Source: Pirellulaceae bacterium (GTDB lineage: Bacteria; Planctomycetota; Planctomycetia; Pirellulales; Pirellulaceae). From it: a DNA stretch of 64,000 bases. Positions 45,542 through 49,170 of the stretch are shown piece by piece. The notes below the pieces were generated by a model, which worked only from the letters and a program-made list of their open reading frames with translations, was not told where the DNA came from and did not search any database. The stretch's first letter is position 1. Every line of letters starts with the position of its first letter. Made by a program: the position numbers and the translations under genes. Location of the stretch: NCBI GenBank assembly GCA_020852965.1, contig JADYZV010000194.1, positions 1-64,000 on the forward strand. Reading direction: 5' to 3'.

Positions 45542-45774
45542 CCTCTGCGACCTGGCTACTCGACGTGTATATAGTTCCTAGTCGCCGCGGCAGTGGCATT
45601 GGCACGCAATTGACAAACTCAATCCTCACTCACCCGTTCTTCGCGTCTGTGCAACGCTGGATGCTTCGTACGACAGACGCCCAAAGGCTATACTCACGTT
45701 TCGGTTTCAAGCGTGTCGCGCAGGGCGACACGTTGATGGTGTTTGATCGCACTGCAGAATCCAATATAAAGTAG
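45542..45774 (+). pseudogene. GNAT acetyltransferase, C-terminal fragment
   Basis: Directly after the HAD stop, one frame reads SATWLLDVYIVPSRRGSGIG, the acetyl-CoA-binding motif (R/Q-x-x-G-x-G/A), then TNSILTHPFFASVQRWMLRT, DAQRLYSRFGFKRV. This is the second half of a GNAT enzyme of about 140-150 residues; the first strands and helices are absent and the join coincides with the HAD stop. The GTG at 45565 is not a credible start. Confidence 0.7.
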
Positions 45775-45907
45775 CAAGACGAAAAAAGCGTAGCCAGCCA
45801 CCACATTCAGCCGTGGATGCAATACGTGAGCGCACAAACTGGTGTAGGCGATCACTCAGCTCACGCCAGATTTGTTCGGTCTTCGTTTTTCGCTGTTCTT
45901 GATTCAT
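45707..45907 (-). pseudogene. SigZ-like sigma factor, N-terminal fragment
   Basis: ATG at 45907 follows the stop of the cysteine-rich gene by one base (TAA C ATG). The start MNQEQRKTKTEQIWRELSDR then LHQFVRSRIAS is the N-terminus of SigZ-type sigma factors (IWxEFxxxLxxFIRSRV). Similarity ends after about 37 residues near 45797; the remaining frame is unrelated. Only the first part of region 2 is left, so it cannot work as a sigma factor. The tight junction suggests that intact gene and the cysteine-rich gene were translated together. Confidence 0.6.
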
Positions 45908-45908
45908 G

Positions 45909-46046
45909 TTAGCAGCAAGATTTGTCCGGCTTCGAACTTGCCTCGGAATTGCATTGTGAACAGCAGCAGCAGCAACAGCAGCGATTACTGCAACAACTTG
46001 CTTTTTCGCAACATTCTGGCTGGTTTTGTTTGGCTTGCTCGGTCAT
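45909..46046 (-). CDS. Cysteine-rich 45-residue protein, metallothionein-like in composition
   Basis: Small gene with strong ribosome site (AAGGAG, 6-7 bases before ATG 46046). The product has 45 residues, 14 of them Cys: MTEQAKQNQPECCEKASCC, then SNRCCCCCCCSQCNSEASSK, PDKSCC. Cys pairs at 12-13, 18-19 and 44-45, seven consecutive Cys at 23-29 and one at 32 suggest metal or metalloid binding; no family is recognised. It is followed one base after its stop by the ATG of a SigZ-like start, a layout for coupled translation. The CTG/TGC-like triplet run makes chance low complexity a competing explanation, but the ribosome site, the coupling and the spread of the other Cys pairs argue for a real gene. 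Confidence 0.6.
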   Translation of the reverse strand: MTEQAKQNQPECCEKASCCSNRCCCCCCCSQCNSEASSKPDKSCC

Positions 46047-46130
46047 TTCACGCTCCTTATAGAGTAGTTAAAATGGGCTGTCAAATTGCCCTTCACTCCA
46101 TAGACGTCGGAGGCTCAAGAAAGACGCACC

Positions 46131-46210: not shown

Positions 46211-47473
46211 CTAGCGAACGCTGCCGGCGACAGGGGGAGAGACGGAGCGCGATACCAACGTGGCTTGGGCAATCATGCCTTGCAGCAGTGGCTGGAGCAC
46301 ATCGGCAGGCAAAGCGTATGAGGAGACGCGTCCGGCGCGAGCGATGTTGAGCCCGACGACTTGGCCGTCCAAATTGCATAGCGGGCCGCCGCACTGGGTG
46401 GGGTCGAGCACGGTGTCGTGCAAGAAAACGCGATCGAAGCCGGTGGCGCGAGCGCTGACGGGCCCGTTGACTTCCATCTCCGTCTCGTCGAGTAGTTCGT
46501 CGGCGAGGTCCATGAGCTGGGCGTTGATTTCGAACTCCTTCTCAGCTCGCGAAATGGTCAGCTTGACCACAGTTCCGCCACGGGAGGCATCGATGGCGCG
46601 TTGAAAGCCTTGGTGGGAAGCGACCGGGCTACCATTGACAGCGATGATATTGTCACCGACTCGCAAGCCCGCCTGCTCAGCTCCGGTCCCCATCAGCACG
46701 CGAACCACGGCGGCACCAGCGGTCGAATCGGTAAGCTCGACGCCTAGCACGGCCCGCGCGGATCGAACCGATTGAATTCCCGCGCTGACAACGCCCACGG
46801 CGGTGGGCATTTTGGCGATGTCAGTCGTCGCCAACCAAGTGCCTCGCGAGGGAATGCTCGAATTGGCCCAATGGACGGCGCTCAGTCCGTCGCGTTGGAC
46901 TCGAAGCAACGCGATATCGTAATCGCTCGAAAGTTGCACGATCTCAGCGACTAATTCGGAGTTGTCGGACAATTGAGCGGTTACTTTGTCTCTGCCCGAT
47001 AGCTGGCTGGCTTTGGTTGCAATCCAGCCGTCGGAATCGACGATGGCACCCAACGCGATCTGCCGCCCCTCTTCGTTCAGGAGCTGAACGGTACTCAAAC
47101 GAGTATCGACGACCGCCTCGCTGAAGGCGCGGAGCATGGTGAAGTTATTGCGTTGATGGGCGCGGCGCAGGCCCGAAGAAAAGTCGGGGCGGAAGCTCGA
47201 ATGGCTGAGTGGCTCTTGGACAAATTGCGCACCTTGATTTTCGGCTGGCTCGGTCAGATCGCAGCTATCGACTTGGCATAACGGCTGAGGTTCTGGTTCG
47301 GTAGCCAGTGCGGTGAGCAGACGCGTTGCGGATAGCGAAGTCCAGCTTAGAACAAAGCCACCTAGCAGGGCGAACAGCATCAATGTCTGAGCCATTGGGG
47401 CCTGAGCAAATCGAGAGCGGTTTGGCAAGCTGCACGGAGAATTGCCGGGAACCTTAGATAGCGAATTTTTCAC
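46211..47473 (-). CDS. Trypsin-like (S1C) protein with PDZ insert, catalytic residues replaced
   Basis: 420 residues with one N-terminal membrane segment (TLMLFALLGGFVLSWTSL), so anchored and facing the periplasm. The protease N-lobe is seen at about 120-235 (GAIVDSDGWIATKASQL, SSDYDIALLRV). A PDZ domain follows at about 240-300 (VLMGTGAEQAGLRVGDNIIA, VNGSPVASHQGFQRAI). Then the end of the protease fold returns (LDPTQCGGPLCNLDGQVVGL, SSYALPADV). In active relatives the first segment has TAAHV or TNNHV; here TKASQ, so His is lost. GNSGGPL became TQCGGPL, so Ser is Cys. It is probably an inactive homologue, perhaps a regulator or binder. It lies just downstream of the intact paralogue on the same strand. 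Confidence 0.82.
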   Translation of the reverse strand: MKNSLSKVPGNSPCSLPNRSRFAQAPMAQTLMLFALLGGFVLSWTSLSATRLLTALATEPEPQPLCQVDSCDLTEPAENQGAQFVQEPLSHSSFRPDFSSGLRRAHQRNNFTMLRAFSEAVVDTRLSTVQLLNEEGRQIALGAIVDSDGWIATKASQLSGRDKVTAQLSDNSELVAEIVQLSSDYDIALLRVQRDGLSAVHWANSSIPSRGTWLATTDIAKMPTAVGVVSAGIQSVRSARAVLGVELTDSTAGAAVVRVLMGTGAEQAGLRVGDNIIAVNGSPVASHQGFQRAIDASRGGTVVKLTISRAEKEFEINAQLMDLADELLDETEMEVNGPVSARATGFDRVFLHDTVLDPTQCGGPLCNLDGQVVGLNIARAGRVSSYALPADVLQPLLQGMIAQATLVSRSVSPPVAGSVR

Positions 47474-47606: not shown

Positions 47607-48902
47607 TTAACCGCCGCGGACGCCGACGGTGACGGGAAGTTGTAGGATTTGATCCTTGCGTTGAACCTTGAGCACGATTACGTCCCCAGGCATACTCTGT
47701 TCTACGTGCTCGCGTAGTTCGACGAAGGTAGTAATGGCCACACCGTCACAAGCCACGATGAGATCGCCAACTTCGAGCCCCGCCTGGCGGGCAGGTCCGC
47801 TTGGATCCAATGAGGAGATCAGTGCTCGCTCGTCCCCCTTGGTCCCTCCGACGCCGATAATCGGTTGGTAGCCAGGGAGCATACCCCATACTTCTCGATT
47901 GACCATCCGGTCCCAACTGGCGCTAAACACATCGATGGGAACGTGCATGTTGTCTTCGACATCGGTGCCGATGCGCGAGTGGATCCCGATCAGCTTACCT
48001 TCCAAAGTAAACAGTGGGCCACCGCTATCACCTCCGATAAGGGCGCAATCCGTGAATAGGGTATGAGCAACTTTTTCACTACGACTTTTGCTGATCTTCA
48101 AAACGCGTCCAACTCGGATCACGGCTCCACGATCTGGCTTCCAGCCGCCAGGGTGCCCCGAGGCGATACACCACTGGCCAACTCGCAAATCGCTGCTGCG
48201 TCCGATGGTCGCGTGGGGCCATGGGCCAAAGCGGCTGTCTTCGATTTTTATCAGACCGGCGTCTTTGTCGCGATTCATTCCCAGCGTCCGCGCCTTGAGC
48301 TGCGTGCCGTCGCTGAGAATGACCCAGGCCACACGGTCTTTGCCGCCGGCTACGTGGGCAGCCGTCAGCACATAGCCGTCGGCGGTAATGATCACACCGC
48401 TCCCTTGGGCCGAGCCTTGCTGTACATTGACAGTGACCCGTTCGATGGCTTTGGCCACTTTGGATTGTTGCAGTTCGAGCGCTTTGAGCTCTTGTAAGGT
48501 ACTCGGTTCGCGGCCGAGAAAGACCGACTGCAGCCCACTAGCCAGGGCGACATACGTGGCACCATCCTGTTGCTTGTCCGCAGACGACACCGACGCTTTG
48601 GCTGCCACACGCGGCAGATTTGACGAATCCCCAGCAGTCGGTGCTTGTGTGCTCGGGAATTGAGAGCCGGGTAGCTGCCCAGGCTGATTCAACTCCGCTG
48701 GTGCCAATTCGAGCGGAGCGGGGGCTCGGTAGGGCAGGGGCGAATTTTGTGAAGGTGTTTGAGGCGGGAGGACCGATTCAACCTGCCCATGGGCTTCGAT
48801 CAGCCCCAACCAAGCACAACATAGCAGCACTAGCCAAAAGGGAGAATGGACGCCGCGGCGCTGAAGGCGATTCGAGCCATCCAAGGTCGAACTTATATGC
48901 AT
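47607..48902 (-). CDS. Trypsin-like serine protease with PDZ domain (DegP/HtrA-like)
   Basis: Exported protease of 431 residues. N-terminal hydrophobic stretch (WLVLLCCAWLGLIEAHGQ) then a Pro/Gln-rich linker. Catalytic triad intact: His in VLTAAHVAGG near 178, Asp in NRDKDAGLIKI near 213, Ser in GGDSGGPLFTLEGKLIGI near 289. PDZ domain at about 355-420 (SLDPSGPARQAGLEVGDLIV, ITTFVELREHVEQSMPGDVI). Role: breakdown or sensing of misfolded envelope proteins, by analogy. ATG at 48902 is favoured over the TTG two codons earlier. The inactive-looking paralogue follows 134 bases downstream, so both may be expressed together. Confidence 0.9.
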   Translation of the reverse strand: MHISSTLDGSNRLQRRGVHSPFWLVLLCCAWLGLIEAHGQVESVLPPQTPSQNSPLPYRAPAPLELAPAELNQPGQLPGSQFPSTQAPTAGDSSNLPRVAAKASVSSADKQQDGATYVALASGLQSVFLGREPSTLQELKALELQQSKVAKAIERVTVNVQQGSAQGSGVIITADGYVLTAAHVAGGKDRVAWVILSDGTQLKARTLGMNRDKDAGLIKIEDSRFGPWPHATIGRSSDLRVGQWCIASGHPGGWKPDRGAVIRVGRVLKISKSRSEKVAHTLFTDCALIGGDSGGPLFTLEGKLIGIHSRIGTDVEDNMHVPIDVFSASWDRMVNREVWGMLPGYQPIIGVGGTKGDERALISSLDPSGPARQAGLEVGDLIVACDGVAITTFVELREHVEQSMPGDVIVLKVQRKDQILQLPVTVGVRGG

Positions 48903-49170
48903 CGGCAAATCCCAGGGAACGGATACAAAGGAAACAGCCCTTAGAGTTTGCCTCTAAAGACTTTGCTGGACATCCTGATTATTCGTGCGATCAGAACAAA
49001 ATGAAACCCTTTGGCAAATCTTTTTCTGCAGATGTAGCCAATTTAGTAACGCCAAACTGGGAAAAGGTAACGAGTTTGACGGTTGAACCACGCCCCAGCC
49101 AAGCAATAGCTGGACTGGACAGCTCGTTGAATTCGCAGAAATGTGGCAGGTAGGGCTTCGATGTGACTCT

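Follow-up and report, generated by a model that had tools for sequence, protein, structure and literature searches.

The 64,000-nucleotide stretch of DNA analysed here (hereafter the window) carries a short, very cysteine-rich open reading frame (ORF) directly before the broken start of a sigZ-like gene. This arrangement raises the question of whether the ORF encodes a functional product, whether that product was once made together with an ECF sigma factor, and what such a product might bind. The explanation which we favour, with a probability of about 0.7, is that the locus represents the front relic of a SigZ-autoregulated operon whose peptide is likely to bind a metalloid or soft metal, with arsenic as the leading candidate. 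The features on which the argument draws are collected in Table 1.

Table 1. Features at and around the relic, with their positions in the window
Feature	Position	Strand	Basis or remark
GNAT acetyltransferase C-terminal remnant	45544..45774	(+)	Pfam Acetyltransf_7, 3e-7; convergent with the sigZ remnant
sigZ remnant (ATG and some 31 codons with homology to sigZ)	45815..45907	(-)	Alignments to intact SigZ; NCBIfam
Cys-rich peptide ORF (45 aa, 14 Cys)	45909..46046	(-)	Class: small Cys-rich proteins directly before sigZ
Shine-Dalgarno AAGGAG, 6 nt 5' of the peptide ATG	46053..46058	(-)	Sequence
SigZ-type promoter TGCGTC-N16-CGTCT	46102..46128	(-)	-35 at 46128-46123, -10 at 46106-46102; sole strict match in the window
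Two adjacent trypsin-like/PDZ (HtrA-like) genes flanking the relic	46211-47473, 47607-48908		Pfam on the first

A cysteine-rich ORF before a broken sigma gene

The minus-strand ORF encodes MTEQAKQNQPECCEKASCCSNRCCCCCCCSQCNSEASSKPDKSCC, in which a run of seven cysteines is accompanied by three separate CC pairs. Direct reading bore out every count of the original prediction (an AAGGAG site, 14 Cys in 45 residues, the seven-Cys run and three CC pairs) as well as the stop codon placed one base before a SigZ-like ATG, since TAA (45911-45909) is followed by a single base and then by the ATG at 45907-45905 (TAA-C-ATG). The accompanying statement that the gene is not detected as a normal ORF reflects a length cut-off alone, and the ORF is listed once the minimum is set at 30 aa. 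Of the 821 window ORFs of 25-100 aa, no other combines 8 or more Cys with a Cys content of 15% or more; the background for the same criteria is one in 2791 ORFs from 83 loci, that one being devoid of a Shine-Dalgarno sequence. Searches of Pfam and NCBIfam returned no family, and no metallothionein model, for the window peptide or for the peptides of seven relatives (eight tested in all). Used as a direct query, the 45-aa peptide gave no strong match beyond the window's own in 60 genomes and no match among plasmids. This search is insensitive (G059 is among the 60 genomes, yet its peptide at L186 was not listed) and hence uninformative, so that relatives were sought through SigZ instead.

The sigma-factor remnant opens with MNQEQRKTKTEQIWRELSDRLHQFVRSRIAS and is identical to the SigZ of locus L054 at 22 of 31 residues (counted by eye). 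A truncated SigZ-like N-terminus had been proposed, and about 31 codons do align to intact SigZ before an unrelated tail begins; the proposed boundary at 45797 overshoots the homologous part, as homology stops near 45815, while the frame itself continues to 45707 through a tail without evident homology. With the NCBIfam SigZ model (NF007215), the window fragment scores 12.7 bits against a cut-off of 212 and does not qualify as a whole family protein. Other ECF factors are encoded in the source genome (8.37 Mb, 99.52% complete), but neither NF007215 (top score 84.9 bits; 21 of 71 first-look candidates scored) nor a SigZ alignment (no match at 1e-34; 8 of 73 candidates scored) revealed a full SigZ there. 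Since these searches brought up no intact SigZ, the peptide gene is probably orphaned from its sigma factor and probably silent or nearly so. The result fits the view that the peptide was formerly co-produced with the factor, and the window has caught the unit in decay, with the sigma gene broken and the promoter and peptide gene still readable.

The neighbouring genes were also considered. The GNAT remnant is possibly, though uncertainly, a further relic of a sigZ island; its assignment as ArsN2 was not accepted, as its 31.6 bits, against a cut-off of 125, are on a par with the score of another GNAT from this genome. The first HtrA-like gene was matched in 12 of 14 other genomes of the genus, and both genes together in 8 (the loci being short). 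No clear match to the peptide was seen in these 14 genomes, which is a weak test given the insensitivity of the peptide search.

Intact gene pairs and a common promoter element

A survey of 149 genomes of the family yielded SigZ of at least 173 bits in five (L022-L026), two of them above the NF007215 cut-off, and in three of these five loci a Cys-rich ORF lies directly before sigZ. A contig scan, of which the best 80 of 333 named loci were kept, and 392 genomes of the phylum, which gave 19 more loci, extended the collection; after dropping L086 (the same locus as L026), the SigZ-like set comprises 103 loci. All denominators retain seven loci (L128, L129, L130, L133-L136) that match ECF factors weakly, at about 69-73 bits, and lack the CC motif of SigZ.

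The window, L024, L138 and L139 can be aligned through the promoter, the peptide gene, the junction and sigZ up to about codon 31, the gap between stop and ATG being 2 nt in the three relatives vs 1 nt in the window. The original prediction had staked itself on a peptide homologue standing beside sigZ in relatives, and these three loci have the pair; co-production with a SigZ-type ECF factor is strongly supported by three intact pairs, a common promoter and alignable DNA. Across the SigZ-like set (best 80 of 333 included), 20 of 103 loci have a Cys-rich ORF immediately upstream of SigZ and in its orientation, whereas scripted scanning of the opposite strand found none. Sixteen of the 20 were obtained by script at a threshold of at least 13% Cys and four (L092, L131, L152, L155) with a start set by the ribosome-binding site; at 15%, the value at which the window and background were scored, the script gives 14 loci, L151 and L154 dropping out. 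Named hosts include a Pirellulaceae bacterium (L086), Planctomyces sp. (L131), Polaribacter (L099), Lutibacter (L100), Bizionia (L106), Oceanihabitans (L109) and Seonamhaeicola (L115). In six flavobacterial loci, the SigZ match begins 57-86 nt past the peptide stop, with a hairpin in between.

A promoter element, absent from the original prediction, was recognised 55 nt upstream of the peptide ATG (TGCGTCTTTCTTGAGCCTCCGACGTCT, 46128-46102 on the minus strand), and the alignment places it identically in L024, L138 and L139. Two features define the group of SigZ-coupled peptides proposed here, namely a short ORF that carries 8 or more Cys and immediately precedes sigZ in the same orientation, and TGCRTCY-N15-CGTCT no more than 100 nt ahead of the peptide; the window peptide has both. 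The element was first noticed in the printed upstream regions of 25 loci and then tested on all 103, where TGC[AG]TC[TC]-N15-CGTCT occurs near SigZ in 65 of 103 loci and, outside the printed 25, in 49 of 78 (hand count; both sets including the best 80 of 333). Between -1000 and +300 of SigZ, there are 69 matches on the same strand and one on the opposite strand, as compared with 5 and 2 in 750 kb outside and a mean of 0.05 expected from shuffles; 25 non-SigZ ECF loci and 19 other loci gave no match. The arrangement agrees with an excerpt of PMC6713349, in which the Bacillus subtilis SigZ promoter has a C at -34, fitting the TGC seen here.

At the scale of whole genomes, TGCRTCYTTN13CGTCT has a single match in the 8.37-Mb source genome, at the peptide gene. 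It occurs once or twice, always including the sigZ operon, in G063, G068, G092, G163, G145, G227, G248 and G466, and once in G224, where it lies 3' of sigZ and 5' of a Cys-rich ORF; the SigZ genomes G258 and G199 have none, and a backwards control pattern has no match in any of the 12 genomes (the source and the SigZ genomes). The strict element is missing near SigZ in 38 of 103 loci (best 80 of 333 included). These include the seven weakly matching ECF loci that lack the CC motif, two loci (L022, L023) in which the promoter stands at a greater distance upstream, ahead of a gene for an oxidoreductase, and two (L099, L100) with AGTCT in place of CGTCT. Over 396 genomes of the order, the pattern is found in 33 and the backwards control in about 40, so that an isolated match is informative only through where it lies; use of the order-wide matches as a regulon list was rejected, most lone matches being due to chance by this control. 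A search with the promoter pattern alone, in which 31 of the 39 listed sites were examined, returned the known loci of G000, G068, G163 and G145 and one new peptide/sigZ pair in G059 (L186), which stands outside both the 20 and the 103. Separately, TGCATCTTTTTTGTACAAAAAACGTCT in G799 fits the SigZ pattern in four identical copies (L206 and three other places) and is probably a repeat rather than a promoter. Taken together, the gene pair, the common promoter element, the tight junction and the truncation of sigZ in the window are borne out by comparison of these sequences.

Genes behind the promoter, arsenic and possible sensing

The first gene behind the promoter encodes an arsenite methyltransferase (arsM) in L113 (362.1 bits against a cut-off of 263) and ArsI/CadI in L074 (153.7 bits against 116). 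In other loci, its product is a permease similar to SaoE and SO_0444 or a DF-family protein, each scoring under its cut-off, or else a PatB C-S lyase, SigZ itself or a small Cys-rich peptide. PatB-type C-S lyases or look-alikes stand behind the promoter in L102, L104, L114 and L119 (model run on L102), the hosts being Vibrio, Ferrimonas, Thalassomonas and Alginatibacterium, while DF-family-like proteins with three CC pairs each, in which they closely resemble the free peptides, occupy the position in L059, L060, L065 and L072 (model run on L059).

Arsenic genes were surveyed by tblastn (1e-8, single references) at the same 103 SigZ places, some of them in wider stretches. ArsM-, ArsI-, ArsA-, ArsC- or ArsE-like genes occur in 45 of 103 loci and, on adding the permease and the DF protein, in 60 of 103 (best 80 of 333 included in each case), as compared with none of 80 control loci, which are shorter (252 kb vs 1080 kb for the SigZ loci). 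Among the 20 loci with a Cys-rich ORF before SigZ, arsenic genes are nearby, within the stretches searched, only in L026/L056; the link of the peptide to arsenic therefore runs via SigZ and the promoter. At least two CC pairs are found in 19 of 52 first genes of at least 100 aa behind the promoter (three of the 52, in L099, L106 and L115, being flavobacterial SigZ) vs 14 of 727 background ORFs of at least 150 aa. The arsenic genes near SigZ and the Cys pairs on other promoter-linked proteins lend indirect support to the putative binding of a metal or metalloid by the peptide. A full-text literature search brought up no paper that, judged by its title, connects SigZ with arsenic or with Cys-rich peptides, and the available excerpt of PMC10141391 lists B. 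subtilis SigZ only as 'ECF', with no role given there.

With respect to family membership, the TIGR02959 cut-off of 168.65 is exceeded by the intact SigZ of L054 (181.5), L055 (182.3) and L092 (176.5), while L056 (159.4) and the flavobacterial partners in L099, L109 and L115 (154-163) fall below it. Residues C167, C168, C189 and C192 of the L024 SigZ are Cys in 87, 95, 84 and 75 of 102 SigZ-like sequences, respectively, and C109, before region 4, in 56 of 102. In a structure model of this protein (mean pLDDT 85.9, pTM 0.52), the four C-terminal residues are predicted to lie where a helix ends, past a hairpin and within a short helix. Such a conserved CC...CxxC tail could allow SigZ to act as a metal or metalloid sensor; CorE-type sigma factors, as described in an excerpt of PMC8999054, sense metals through C-terminal Cys, and the activity of the CorE-like ECF238 group requires a Cys-rich C-terminal domain and a linker CXC.

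We infer that SigZ reads this promoter, that it positively autoregulates its own operon, that the peptide binds a metalloid and that SigZ may serve as the sensor. Transcription by SigZ-RNA polymerase in the intact relatives would begin at TGCRTCYTTTT-N11-CGTCT and yield a single mRNA, the first product of which would be the very Cys-rich peptide, and sigZ would be translated by coupling right behind the peptide gene, thereby closing a positive loop. With its Cys pairs and runs, the peptide would most likely bind ions of soft metals or metalloids, As(III) and trivalent organoarsenicals being the leading candidates, and would either lower the free ion level or pass the ions to enzymes. The sensor might be SigZ, whose tail carries the conserved CC...CxxC.

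Peptide function, competing explanations and known systems

Whether the peptide itself matters was addressed in the relatives. Six flavobacterial peptides conserve 11 Cys with a spacing that is fixed in all six, and pairwise comparison of four of them gives pS of 0.51-0.74 and pN of 0.06-0.24; on these sequence comparisons, the four peptides are under protein-level selection. The L138/L139 pair (pS 0.15, pN 0.07) is too close to say much, and between lineages the peptides have little in common except Cys. A free 77-aa Cys-pair peptide is encoded 5' of the oxidoreductase gene in L089, while in L052 a like segment forms the N-terminus of the oxidoreductase itself (36% identity, with E 1e-5 when the two sequences alone are compared); no match to the L089 peptide was obtained with the N-terminus of the enzyme in L053. 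The occurrence of the free and the fused form points to a protein function over a leader.

The strongest competing explanation is that of a poly-Cys leader, i.e. a cysteine-responsive attenuator in which ribosomes stalled at Cys codons for want of Cys or Cys-tRNA would alter termination or translation ahead of sigZ, with an inert peptide as by-product. Mycobacterial polycysteine short ORFs are reportedly attenuators (by a title cited in PMC7790235), and seven consecutive Cys codons with a tight sigZ junction would suit such a device, as would the hairpins between the peptide stop and sigZ in seven folded loci (L099, L100, L106, L109, L115, L116, L149), which have z values of -2.5 to -7.7 against mononucleotide shuffles and, in several cases, a U-rich stretch after them. 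From their sequence, these hairpins could act as an attenuator or could provide for much peptide and little SigZ. A leader has no need, however, of the fixed 11-Cys spacing and of a pN well below pS in flavobacteria; several relatives have dispersed CC pairs without a long Cys run, the Cys-pair segment is fused to an enzyme in L052, and enzymes occupy the promoter-proximal slot in other lineages. We therefore regard a leader as unlikely.

A peptide that inhibits SigZ until titrated by thiols or metalloids, or that senses them jointly with SigZ in the manner of a small anti-sigma factor, is considered improbable. Its genetic coupling to sigZ would be expected of such a partner, but no motif other than Cys is common to the lineages, 83 of 103 SigZ-like loci (best 80 of 333 included) have no such upstream ORF, and anti-sigma genes usually lie 3' of the sigma gene. 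A chance ORF in a CTG/CAG-like repeat beside a decayed gene is hardly credible, for although the Cys codons run within a TGC/TGT stretch whose other frames are also open, the ORF is one of its kind among 821 in the window, has a promoter and Shine-Dalgarno sequence in place, and belongs to a gene pair with homologues in relatives, which use mixed TGT and TGC for Cys.

The SigZ-operon relic with a metal- or metalloid-binding peptide consequently remains the preferred reading. A broader proposal, held tentatively and with slightly more doubt than belief, is that SigZ is a cross-phylum arsenic/soft-metal response sigma factor with one conserved promoter, that some of its regulons have shrunk to a co-made Cys-rich chelating peptide, and that the free peptides correspond, as independent proteins, to the Cys-pair segments carried by SigZ-controlled enzymes such as ArsM, ArsI and a flavin oxidoreductase. 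The cross-phylum promoter and the recurrent first genes make the role of SigZ directly testable, and such peptides would form a class of small Cys-rich proteins overlooked by ordinary annotation. Since the window copy is a relic, the main interest lies in the intact family and its promoter.

Among known systems, bacterial metallothioneins (SmtA/BmtA) are small proteins with about one-third Cys. The window peptide resembles them in size and Cys content, and the flavobacterial peptides have CxC and CxxC; it differs by its poly-Cys run and CC pairs, the lack of His, the SigZ-type promoter and the absence of a family match. Mycobacterial polycysteine leader ORFs, compared at the level of titles, are likewise short, Cys-codon-rich and placed before a gene, whereas the peptides described here have protein-level conservation, a Shine-Dalgarno start and a like segment fused to an enzyme. 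The SigZ family (TIGR02959/NF007215) is approached through the intact relatives above the TIGR02959 cut-off and the promoter C at -34 (excerpt of PMC6713349), while the window copy retains only about 31 codons and L056 and the flavobacterial partners lie under that cut-off. Finally, SigZ shares with the CorE-like ECF238 factors, as far as the excerpt of PMC8999054 describes them, the nature of an ECF factor with conserved C-terminal Cys, and is distinguished from them by having a CC...CxxC tail in place of a long Cys-rich domain.
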